Under the pieces are notes generated by a model. That model ran no database searches. It had not been told where the DNA came from and saw only the letters and a list, made by a program, of their open reading frames with translations. This document shows, one piece after another, positions 11,131 to 13,460 of a stretch of 64,000 bases of DNA; within the stretch, counting starts at the first letter, position 1; every line of letters starts with the position of its first letter. The stretch comes from Leucobacter tenebrionis (GTDB lineage: Bacteria; Actinomycetota; Actinomycetes; Actinomycetales; Microbacteriaceae): NCBI RefSeq assembly GCF_019884725.1, contig NZ_CP082322.1:682001-746000 (forward strand), given 5' to 3'. The position numbers and the translations under genes are program-made.

Positions 11131-11781
11131 TCACTCCCCCTCGGTCTTGCGCTTCTTGCGCAGGCGACCGGGTTTGCTCTGAGTCTGCTGCTGCACGAGC
11201 GCCGTGAGGTCCTTCTCGATGAGCTGCTGGATGCGGCCCTCGCGCGCGGCCTGATACTCCTCGCTGGCACCGCCGCTGTAGTAGGGGTGCGTGGCCCGCT
11301 CCTTGAGCGAGTCGCCGATCTCGTGCCACGCCATCGAGCGCGCCCGCTCGGCGGTGTCGCTCAGGTACTCGATGTCGTTCGCCCGGGTCTGCAGTTCCTC
11401 GGCGACCTTCTCGTAGACCTCCTGGCGGTGCCGCAGCGTACGGTTGTCGTCGTTGCCGTAGTCGGATTCGCTCCAGGAGCTGTGACCCGTGTCTCGGATC
11501 TCGCTGCGCATACGGGCGATGTGCAGCGCGTCGCGCTCGCGCTCCTTCGCGAGATCCTCGGTGGCCTGACGCACCATCTCGCGGATCTGCGCCTCGTCGT
11601 AGTCGGCGTGCCGCTTCAGCGCGTTCATGATGATCTCGTTCTTGACACTCATCCGCACCGCGACATCGGCGACGAGCAGCCCCTGCTCGACGATCTCCTC
11701 GACGGGGGCGAGCACGCGTCGAGGCAGCCTGCGAGCAGGGCGCGCACTGCCGCGCTTGCGTTTCTTCGACCAGCCGAACAC
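11131..11781 (-). CDS. conserved hypothetical charged, helical protein
   Basis: This 216-residue, very hydrophilic protein is not one I recognise. It begins with a basic patch (FGWSKKRKRGSARPARR) and ends with another (KPGRLRKKRKTEGE). The middle is predicted to be almost all helix and rich in Glu, Arg and Gln, with likely coiled-coil stretches (EMVRQATEDLAKERERD, EVYEKVAEELQTRANDIEYL). There is no signal peptide or membrane helix. The basic ends could bind nucleic acid or acidic lipids, which is a guess. GTG 11781 has AGGAG 4 nt upstream. Confidence 0.6.
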   Translation of the reverse strand: MFGWSKKRKRGSARPARRLPRRVLAPVEEIVEQGLLVADVAVRMSVKNEIIMNALKRHADYDEAQIREMVRQATEDLAKERERDALHIARMRSEIRDTGHSSWSESDYGNDDNRTLRHRQEVYEKVAEELQTRANDIEYLSDTAERARSMAWHEIGDSLKERATHPYYSGGASEEYQAAREGRIQQLIEKDLTALVQQQTQSKPGRLRKKRKTEGE

Positions 11782-11931
11782 CGCGCTCCTTCCGAGAGCC
11801 CACTCGGGCCTCTCCCATTATCGCGCAAAACTGGCGCTCGGCCGGGTTCCGTCGCAAACTCGCCGTCGCTCCTCGGCAGGAAGAGGCGGTGCCGGGTGTG
11901 CAAAAATAGATGAGGCCCCTGCGACCCGGGG

Positions 11932-11970
11932 CGCGGACGAGGGAGCTGTACCCGCACACTGACGACGGCC
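11932..11970 (+). promoter_or_regulatory. guanidine-III (ykkC-III) riboswitch candidate
   Basis: The segment reads GCGGACGAGG, then GAGCTGTACCCGC, then GACGACGGC. GCGG (11933-11936) pairs with CCGC (11952-11955). GCTGT (11945-11949) pairs with ACGGC (11965-11969) across it, giving the compact H-type pseudoknot of guanidine-III RNAs. From memory, the Thermobifida element shares the GGACGAGG and GTACCCG blocks. The last pairing strand abuts the ribosome site GGAAGGAAG (11971-11979) of an SMR guanidinium-exporter gene, the standard arrangement for this class in Actinobacteria. Binding of guanidinium would be expected to alter ribosome access. Confidence 0.8.
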
Positions 11971-11986
11971 GGAAGGAAGCTGCGTC

Positions 11987-12307
11987 ATGTCACTCGCATG
12001 GGCACTGCTCATTCTGAGCGGAATGCTCGAGGCCGTCTGGGCGACCGCCCTCGACGCCTCGAAGGGATTCAAGCGGCTCTGGCCGAGCGTGATCTTCATC
12101 GTCGCCCTCGGCACGAGCATGGTGGGACTGTCGATCGCGATGCGGACCATCCCGGTCGGCACCGCCTACGCCGTGTGGGTCGGGATCGGGGCCGTGCTCA
12201 CCGCCGCGTGGGCCATGCTCACGCGCAAGGACCGTGCGACCGTGCTGCGTGTCGCGCTGCTCATCGGCCTCATCGGCTGCGTGGTCGGCCTGAAGGCGGT
12301 GAGCTGA
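11987..12307 (+). CDS. SMR guanidinium exporter subunit (Gdx/SugE-like)
   Basis: This 106-residue protein has four transmembrane helices and the small-multidrug-resistance fold. The essential glutamate is Glu15 in SGMLEAVWATALDASKGF; the W-A-x-x-S-x-GF pattern is typical of the Gdx (guanidinium) subtype rather than EmrE. It should exchange protons for guanidinium as an antiparallel dimer, probably with the partner encoded 1 bp downstream. ATG 11987 has GGAAGGAAG 7 nt upstream, directly after the riboswitch candidate, so induction by guanidine is expected. The pair resembles YkkC/YkkD-type two-gene exporters. Confidence 0.88.
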   Translation: MSLAWALLILSGMLEAVWATALDASKGFKRLWPSVIFIVALGTSMVGLSIAMRTIPVGTAYAVWVGIGAVLTAAWAMLTRKDRATVLRVALLIGLIGCVVGLKAVS

Positions 12308-12308
12308 G

Positions 12309-12728
12309 ATGGCGGTATCACGAAGCTCGAACGAACCCGCGAAGGTGGCCACGGGCGCGCACTGGCTCGCGCTGCTCGCGAGCGCCGGCCTCGAGGCGGT
12401 GTGGGCCATCGCGCTCGACGAGTCGCGCGGCTTCTCAGTACTGATGCCCACGATCGTCTTCTTCATCGCCAGCCCGCTGAGCATGGTCGGCCTCGGTTAC
12501 GCGATGCGCGGGATCCCGATCAGCGTCGCCTACGCGATCTGGACCGGGCTCGGCGCCGCACTCACCGTCGGCGTCTCGTTCGTGATGGGCACCGATGAGC
12601 CGTCCCCGCTCAAGGTGCTCTTCCTCGCCGGCATCGTCGGCTGCGTGATCGGCCTGAAGTTCGCGAAGGATCCGGACCCGCGCCCCGAGCCCTCGAACGA
12701 CTCCTCGATGGACGCTATGCGGCGGTGA
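12309..12728 (+). CDS. SMR guanidinium exporter, second subunit
   Basis: This 139-residue partner has an 18-residue hydrophilic N-terminal extension, four transmembrane helices and a charged C-terminal tail. The essential glutamate is Glu29 in SAGLEAVWAIALDESRGF, again Gdx-like. ATG 12309 begins 1 bp after the first subunit's stop, so the two are co-transcribed and probably form a heterodimer. The cytoplasmic ends differ from the first subunit, as in other paired SMR systems where each subunit has a fixed orientation. The last 14 bp overlap the convergent DtxR-family gene. Confidence 0.86.
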   Translation: MAVSRSSNEPAKVATGAHWLALLASAGLEAVWAIALDESRGFSVLMPTIVFFIASPLSMVGLGYAMRGIPISVAYAIWTGLGAALTVGVSFVMGTDEPSPLKVLFLAGIVGCVIGLKFAKDPDPRPEPSNDSSMDAMRR

Positions 12729-13395
12729 CCGACACCCACATCGACGAGGCTGCGGCGGGGCCCAGGCTGATGGGCGTGTCCGCACCGCCGACACGCACCG
12801 TGACGGTCTCGGAGTAGGGCTCCCCCGGCAGCACCTCGAGTTCGGCGTCGACGACGAGACTGCGGCTCGCGAAGTATTGCAGCATCTCGTTGTCGGCGTC
12901 GGAGATGCGCTCGATACGCGCGCGGCAGGGGGCGGGCGCTGCCGAGAGGATCACGGCATCGGGGCGGTGCACGCGTCCGTCCGCGCTCGGGATCGGATCG
13001 CCGTGCGGGTCCCTGGTCGGATATCCGAGCACCCGGTCGACGCGGTCGATCAGCCCGTCGGAGACCGCGTGCTCGAGGCGGTCGGCCTCCTCGTGCACCT
13101 CGTCCCACTCGTAGCCGAGCATCTGCACCAGGAAGGTCTCGAGCAGGCGGTGACGGCGGATCATCGAGATCGCGTGCTGCCGCCCGAGGTCGGTGAGGGT
13201 GACGCTGCCGTAGCGGGCATGGCCGATGAGCTCCTGGTCGGCGAGCTTGCGCAGCGCGTCCGACACGGTCGAGAGGCGCACGCCCGCGGCCTCCGCGATG
13301 GCGGAGTTCGAGACCGGCGCGTCCGACCACTCCTGCAGACCCCAGATCACCTTGAGGTAGTTCTGCATACCGGGAGAGATATCGTCGACGCTCAC
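12715..13395 (-). CDS. DtxR/MntR-family metal-dependent repressor
   Basis: This 226-residue regulator has the DtxR layout: winged helix (residues 1-65; PVSNSAIAEAAGVRLSTVSDALRKL), dimerisation/metal domain (66-140; RRHRLLETFLVQMLGYEWDEVHEEADRLEHAVSD) and a C-terminal SH3-like domain (about 150-226). The metal site has the expected Glu and His residues (HRLLE, EVHEEAD, LEH). Mn and Fe repressors are hard to separate by eye; MntR is my guess. GTG 13395 lies exactly 6 nt after TACCCT on the minus strand, pointing to a leaderless start. Its 3' end overlaps the second SMR gene by 14 bp, tail to tail. Confidence 0.85.
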   Translation of the reverse strand: MSVDDISPGMQNYLKVIWGLQEWSDAPVSNSAIAEAAGVRLSTVSDALRKLADQELIGHARYGSVTLTDLGRQHAISMIRRHRLLETFLVQMLGYEWDEVHEEADRLEHAVSDGLIDRVDRVLGYPTRDPHGDPIPSADGRVHRPDAVILSAAPAPCRARIERISDADNEMLQYFASRSLVVDAELEVLPGEPYSETVTVRVGGADTPISLGPAAASSMWVSVTAA

Positions 13396-13460
13396 CCCGC
13401 CAGGGTACCGGTCTCCGGGCATCCCTGGCACTCCACGACGCGCGGGCGCACACTGGAGGC

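Follow-up and report, generated by a model that had tools for sequence, protein, structure and literature searches.

Organization of the locus

The window, by which we mean the whole 64,000-nt stretch of Leucobacter tenebrionis DNA that was analysed, carries two adjacent SMR genes separated by a 1-bp gap and, just before the first of them, a leader that can be drawn as a 5' hairpin followed by an H-type pseudoknot (Table 1). The pseudoknot that an earlier note had drawn by hand, GCGG/CCGC with GCTGT/ACGGC, is present with all its elements, and the conserved blocks of that note, GTACCCG included, are there and were described correctly. The last pseudoknot strand, which the note has touching the ribosome site, is the 3' strand of P2; it stops one base 5' of the Shine-Dalgarno (SD)-like sequence of the first SMR gene. 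Downstream, on the opposite strand, a gene for an MntR/DtxR-type metalloregulator (12715-13431; Pfam Fe_dep_repr_C, 110.6 bits) is convergent with the second SMR gene, the two overlapping by 14 bp at their 3' ends.

Table 1 Features of the leader and the SMR genes in the window, with related features at other loci
Feature	Position	Strand	Remarks
5' hairpin, P0 (GCCCC / GGGGC)	11915-11919 / 11928-11932	+	spans 11915-11932; aligns with the first hairpin of the Rfam model
H-type pseudoknot, whole	11933-11969	+	
P1 (GCGG / CCGC)	11933-11936 / 11952-11955	+	4 pairs
ACGA core	11937-11940	+	C and G are the equivalents of ligand-contact C6 and G7
P2 (GCTGT / ACGGC)	11945-11949 / 11965-11969	+	5 pairs, one G-U
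GTACCCG block	11948-11954	+	G at 11948 is the equivalent of ligand-contact G17
Loop 3	11956-11964	+	9 nt; ends GACG, not GACAAG
Candidate OFF-state hairpin (ACA.TGACG.CGGC / GCTGCGTCATGT)	11956-11990	+	predicted fold of 11954-11997
Shine-Dalgarno-like GGAAGGAAG	11971-11979	+	7 nt 5' of ATG; read from sequence
First Gdx-type SMR subunit, 106 aa	11987-12307	+	Pfam PF00893, 80.1 bits; charge bias -4
Second Gdx-type SMR subunit, 139 aa	12309-12728	+	Pfam PF00893, 60.3 bits; charge bias +7
TCGCACAGTCGTACGA-type palindromes (Curtobacterium)	about 1390-1490 of L062, L064, L065, L069, L072, L080, L083		
CBU_0592-linked leaders with a mismatch at the fourth P2 pair	L167-L171, L173, L175-L179, L181, L182		

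A structural search (P1 of 4 bp, ACGA, P2 of 5 bp and loop rules), favourable to this site because its rules were written from the observed motif, matched the site once in the window; none of 60 random sequences of 64 kb (first-order Markov, both strands) gave a match. P0-like stems of at least 5 pairs occur near P1 in 96 of 106 relatives and in 31% of shuffles, the best stem being taken in each case.

As for expression signals, a sigma-70 promoter scan of 11780-12760 found none, and the single terminator-like site in that interval lies on the - strand. A TGNGANANT pattern starts 32-34 nt 5' of P1 in 20 of the 39 genus leaders, and the window has TGTGCAAAAAT there; this pattern could be an extended -10 element, in which case transcription might start close to the 5' hairpin. 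At some loci of the genus (for example L045, L046 and L049), repeated TGCCCAGG-like boxes were seen by eye within ~75 nt 5' of P1. They are possibly a transcription-factor site and are not evident in the window.

Conservation and covariation of the pseudoknot

A relative of the first SMR protein is present in 46 of 54 genomes of the genus. The aptamer lies directly upstream of the best homologue in all 39 genomes in which identity is 55-100%, and before none of the more distant SMR genes at the seven genus loci fetched. Among named actinobacterial loci it precedes the SMR gene in 70 of 80, a count made up of 67 loci with both helices recognized by script and of L082, L118 and L121, with P2 recognized by eye; a looser regex gives 71, the additional locus (L098) being left out because its match is without the P2 3' strand. 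The two sets overlap, in that named Leucobacter loci L057-L059 are genus loci L027, L032 and L034.

The ten named loci without the aptamer are L067, L095, L098 and seven loci of Curtobacterium. In each of these seven, an imperfect 16-bp palindrome of the TCGCACAGTCGTACGA type occurs twice, at a spacing of 38-44 bp. All three of the loci examined for neighbouring genes have a TetR-like gene in divergent orientation (L062 from Pfam, L064 and L083 from open reading frames). Judging from these sequences, the riboswitch seems to have been replaced by a protein repressor in Curtobacterium.

Covariation was scored on an alignment (A1) of 21 of the 39 genus sequences, hand-picked for diversity and giving 20 distinct rows, in which 99.4% of helix cells form standard pairs. 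P1 is 100% paired with double changes (both sides) at two pairs, and P2 is 99% paired with double changes at three, so that five of the nine pseudoknot pairs have changed on both sides. The covariation score was 0.523. Shuffles gave 0.123, none of 500 reaching the real score, and sliding the helix partners by 1-3 columns left no more than 0.072; we regard the slid-partner control as the fairer one because shuffles leave relatedness uncorrected. The bare number of pairs with double changes did not stand out in A1, since 319 of 500 shuffles did as well. The wider set comprised 103 loci (39 genus and 64 named), after dropping L057-L059 together with L082, L118 and L121, in which the automatic choice of P2 failed and the P2 3' strand is visible by eye. 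At the outermost position of P1 and at that of P2, pairing is standard in 29 of its 32 distinct rows; the remaining seven pairs are standard in every row. Retention of both pairings in related genomes had been set beforehand as a test of the riboswitch, and this is what we found: both helices covary, at a fixed position before the SMR genes of the genus. In Gordonia effusa (L109), loop 3 measures 37 nt, the usual length being 7-12, with an apparent inserted hairpin, and still ends in GACAAG.

Rfam scores and assignment to the guanidine-III class

At gathering thresholds, Rfam returned 0 matches in the whole window. A lax scan of 11780-12050 placed RF01763 (Guanidine-III) at 11912-11973 with 23.3 bits (E 0.0048), below the gathering score of 36 bits, which is an annotation cut-off rather than a biological feature. 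The covariance-model check proposed in the earlier note (ykkC-III) thus failed at the default threshold and succeeded below it, the locus being the top RF01763 match of its own genome with a runner-up at 16.4 bits. RF01763 exceeds the cut-off in 10 of 54 genus genomes, in leaders of the same gene family, with up to 47 bits. Because the window itself stands at 23.3 bits while in G040, G033, G016 and G049 the leaders of this gene pair exceed 36, its membership in the class rests on these relatives. The score alone is not decisive, since matches away from SMR genes in the genus reach 29.4 bits (G003) and 26.6 bits (G005) and so outscore the window site. At six such sites (G003, G005, G034, G035, G026 and G051), tblastn found no SMR gene within the few kb fetched, and by eye none combines ACGA, GTACC and both helices. 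The RF01763 alignment suggests that the low score of the window is mainly due to a two-base deletion in loop 3. Default annotation would miss most such leaders, given 10 genomes above the cut-off against 39 genus loci with the plain motif.

Ligand-contact bases and the shortened loop 3

In the crystal structure of the Thermobifida fusca aptamer, G7 and G17 form bonds with guanidinium, which stacks on C6 (PMC5696562). The equivalents of these three bases are identical in the window, as are those of A5 and A8, and the ACGA and GUAC contexts are invariant in A1. Missing from the window are the loop-3 adenines A32 and A33 (T. fusca numbering), where it reads GAC-G in place of the usual ACAAG ending, which is not a ligand contact. 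Of the 39 genus loci, 23 have the short loop, as do 3 of the 64 named loci counted, two of these from Agromyces; the loop ends in AAG in 16 and 61, respectively. Since both forms precede related Gdx genes within Leucobacter, the ending appears to be a variable structural feature and not a defining one, and we read the short loop as structural variation and not as a new class. The AA-less loop pattern matches 42 of 398 Microbacteriaceae genomes, a number that we do not use as an occurrence because most of the listed matches looked like chance by eye.

Two Gdx-type subunits with opposite charge bias

Both proteins score well above the PF00893 cut-off of 23.7 bits, and they are the only two SMR genes of the genome; a guanidine-I riboswitch gave no match in that genome at E ≤ 1. 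The top solved relative of the first subunit is 6wk5 (E 6e-21, 44% identity), which is Gdx-Clo (PMC7695847). The second, which has N- and C-terminal extensions, is 37% identical to Gdx-Clo and matches only 6wk5 and its close variant 8vxu in the PDB at E ≤ 1e-3. Aligned to Gdx-Clo numbering, both subunits keep the equivalents of E13, W16, S42, Y59, W62, GxG and K101. W16 is described as conserved in Gdx and as Gly or Ala in Qac proteins (PMC7695847); this Qac mark is absent here, with Trp in both subunits, which bears out the Gdx-type motifs that had been noticed in the two proteins. At the Gly10 position, all 47 readable second subunits (48 in all) have Ala, and Gly is present in each of the 116 subunits that are first or single.

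The two subunits differ in charge bias (-4 and +7), as do all 29 genus pairs, which are negative in the first and positive in the second member, while all ten genus singletons have a bias of 0. Loop limits were set by eye for these values. They are distorted in L029 (second gene), L067, L099, L106, L114 and L115, where the start codon was probably placed too far 5', and in L083, whose second gene was unreadable. Opposite Arg/Lys bias is reported as the mark of fixed heterodimers, and ~20% of Gdx transporters as paired (PMC9574504). Because both window subunits carry the Gdx residues, Trp16 among them, and their charge biases are opposite, the pair is likely a fixed heterodimer, in line with the heterodimeric exporter that the earlier note had proposed. 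That note's further point, that RNA and protein evidence both lead to guanidinium, likewise stands for the predicted ligand and substrate, with the contact bases kept on one side and the Gdx residues on the other.

Proposed function and alternative explanations

Given these data, we consider it very probable that the leader forms a guanidine-III (ykkC-III) riboswitch in which loop 3 is shortened, and that this switch governs an operon of two genes whose products make up a heterodimeric guanidinium/proton antiporter of the SMR family, Gdx type. The covarying pseudoknot, the kept ligand contacts, the fixed position before Gdx genes, the Gdx residues and the opposite bias were observed in the sequences; what we infer is ligand binding, translational switching, opposite insertion and export, as follows. 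Binding of guanidinium would fold the pseudoknot. The P2 3' strand and loop 3 would thereby be withdrawn from a competing hairpin in which the start codon is paired and the SD sits in the loop, and translation of both subunits would increase. The subunits would insert in opposite orientations and export guanidinium.

Guanidine-III is regarded in the literature as an ON switch whose presumed target is translation (PMC5696562; review PMC12186494). A candidate for the competing OFF state can be predicted in the window, in which 11956-11969 (loop 3 and the P2 3' strand) pairs with 11979-11990, the whole start codon being paired and the SD lying in a 9-nt loop (-12.1 kcal/mol). This hairpin and the pseudoknot are mutually exclusive, which fits an ON switch; the stability of the hairpin does not exceed that of shuffles (z -0.26, 74 of 200 as good). 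Among relatives (102 sequences, 91 distinct), the P2b/loop 3 segment pairs with the start region at -8.06 kcal/mol, compared with -6.33 for shuffled regions (sd 0.26; 91 distinct relatives). Permuted partners did as well as the own one in 2 of 2000 permutations in the canonical-loop set, the only set in which the pairing was partner-specific, and in 80 of 2000 over all sequences; the own partner had no clear advantage in the genus (462 of 2000 as good) or among its short-loop members (349 of 2000). Imposing the pseudoknot did not raise the mean predicted SD accessibility, either in the genus (0.62 to 0.61, n = 36) or at the named loci (0.46 to 0.40, n = 57), 93 loci being scored; the sets for both analyses comprise loci with a recognized start and SD room, L109 excepted. 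Since SD accessibility shows no mean rise and the window hairpin is no better than shuffles, the translational ON mechanism is one that we infer, and consider likely, with weak support from the folding tests.

The same aptamer and ligand could instead act mainly on mRNA stability, with the bound pseudoknot as a compact barrier that RNase E would meet when scanning from the 5' end; exposure of the SD would then be secondary. Such an effect on RNase E scanning is described for guanidine-III as well (review PMC12186494, citing Richards and Belasco 2021), and the absence of clear SD exposure in the folding agrees with it. Nevertheless, the last strand of P2 abuts the SD, the alternative fold allows pairing of the start codon, and P2b/loop 3 pairs real start regions better than shuffled ones, so that we consider an output mainly through stability less likely than not. 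Another question is whether loss of A32 and A33 has changed the ligand preference of the aptamer, for example towards a substituted guanidine. The deletion is frequent in the genus and rare among the named loci counted, guanidine-III is reported to tolerate methyl- and aminoguanidine (PMC5696562), and ligand-switched variants are known in the ykkC class (PMC7266159). Against this, no change is seen at the equivalents of A5, C6, G7, A8 and G17, and within one genus related Gdx pairs are preceded by either loop form, which makes a changed ligand improbable.

That the pump might be a Qac-type multidrug or polyamine SMR, with guanidine not a substrate, is suggested by NCBIfam, whose top name for the two proteins is SugE, below cut-off (82.5 and 71.8 versus 126), followed by many Qac names. 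We judge it very improbable in view of Trp16 in both subunits where Qac proteins have Gly or Ala, of Gdx-Clo as the closest solved protein and of the guanidine riboswitch upstream. As for a chance resemblance in GC-rich sequence, the RF01763 score under the cut-off and the higher scores of unrelated genus sites would leave room for it, but covariation, conserved position and the absence of the full motif from all 60 random windows reduce its probability to next to nothing, and we take the comparative data (covariation and conservation) to rule it out.

The same aptamer class before CBU_0592 genes

The short-loop aptamer pattern, searched in the 398 Microbacteriaceae genomes, also led to leaders of genus g5 in which a guanidine-III aptamer precedes not an SMR gene but a gene for a ~80-aa membrane protein. 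This protein is matched by NCBIfam NF047864, CBU_0592 (38.1 and 40.5 bits, cut-off 25), and by no Pfam family at E ≤ 0.1. The 398 genomes hold 20 homologues (loci including L164-L182), 18 of which have the aptamer core upstream by regex (for example L164, ~1430-1750). Rfam, run on the loci of all 20 genomes, matches 17 at E ≤ 1, nine of them above the cut-off and with up to 57.9 bits. The two methods disagree on L166 and L176, where the core is present without an Rfam match, and on L180, the 19th homologue, where Rfam gives 29.5 bits and the core is degenerate; L183, a partial match to the protein, has neither.

No Gdx-type SMR was found in the 20 CBU_0592 genomes. Seven have no PF00893 match. 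Of the remaining 13, 12 have readable SMRs, all of them with Ala or Gly at the W16 position and thus Qac-type. Two matches were unreadable, a partial one that is the only match in G276 and one out of three in G189, and spurious second regex matches in L188, L191 and L192 were left out of this reading. By regex, none of the SMR genes of these genomes is preceded by the aptamer; one near-match, in L189, overlaps the SMR gene start and is without GTACC, and a search for the canonical aptamer matched only G275 and G429 of the 20, in sequences without the GTACCCG block. Outside Microbacteriaceae, guanidine-III was found upstream of CBU_0592 at none of 30 phylum-wide loci by regex and at none of the 20 of these covered by Rfam at E ≤ 0.5, for which reason the association looks lineage-specific. 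In three genomes of the phylum-wide set (G688, G636 and G718), CBU_0592 genes form tandem pairs (L201/L229, L203/L225 and L206/L227), an arrangement resembling that of paired SMR genes.

Thirteen of 19 CBU_0592-linked leaders have a single mismatch (C-A, G-G or A-A) at the fourth P2 pair (Table 1), a layer that corresponds to the C15-G38-G10 triple of the crystal structure (PMC5696562). Whether or not they have the mismatch, all 19 leaders carry a base other than G at position 10, so that no covariation between the two can be claimed. The last helix of CBU_0592 has an E-x-x-W motif (LLEGVWA), as does TM1 of Gdx (LEAVWA); the motif also occurs in readable members without a riboswitch and by itself proves nothing.

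With the aptamer before it in genomes that gave no Gdx-type SMR, CBU_0592 appears to have taken the place of Gdx in some Microbacteriaceae. More broadly, and tentatively, guanidine-III aptamers of this family, the short-loop form included, may control two unrelated export solutions, a Gdx-type SMR in many genera and CBU_0592 in others, the latter being a second, independently evolved guanidinium exporter (or other guanidinium-handling protein); we regard this as a real possibility that falls somewhat short of an even chance. Text searches of the papers available for searching returned no mention of CBU_0592 and did not find 'guanidine riboswitch' together with 'membrane protein of unknown'. 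If true, the proposal would supply a function that can be tested for a family whose NCBIfam name says no more than membrane protein, and this lead is of more interest than the window locus itself.

Comparison with known systems

The locus is best described as a divergent example of a known riboswitch class, which adds a riboswitch-controlled predicted guanidinium pump to Leucobacter; together, pump and switch would be an ordinary detoxification unit. With guanidine-III (RF01763; T. fusca structure, PDB 5NWQ) the leader shares the H-type pseudoknot, the ACGA core, the equivalents of G17 and of the C20-G29 pair, the 5' hairpin of the Rfam model, an SMR gene downstream and an SD close by. It differs in that loop 3 is without A32 and A33, in the shorter P2, with 5 pairs (one a G-U) against 7, and in its score (23.3 versus the 36-bit cut-off).

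The proteins share with Gdx-Clo (PDB 6WK5) the SMR family and the equivalents of E13, W16, S42, Y59, W62, GxG and K101. Unlike that single dual-topology protein, the window pair is encoded by two genes with opposite charge bias, and its second subunit has Ala in place of Gly10 and longer termini.

Paired SMR heterodimers include YkkCD and EbrAB, and ykkCD is under guanidine-I control. The window pair resembles them in its adjacent genes and opposite Arg/Lys bias, and a paired Gdx with such a bias is already known in kind; what differs is its predicted control by guanidine-III.
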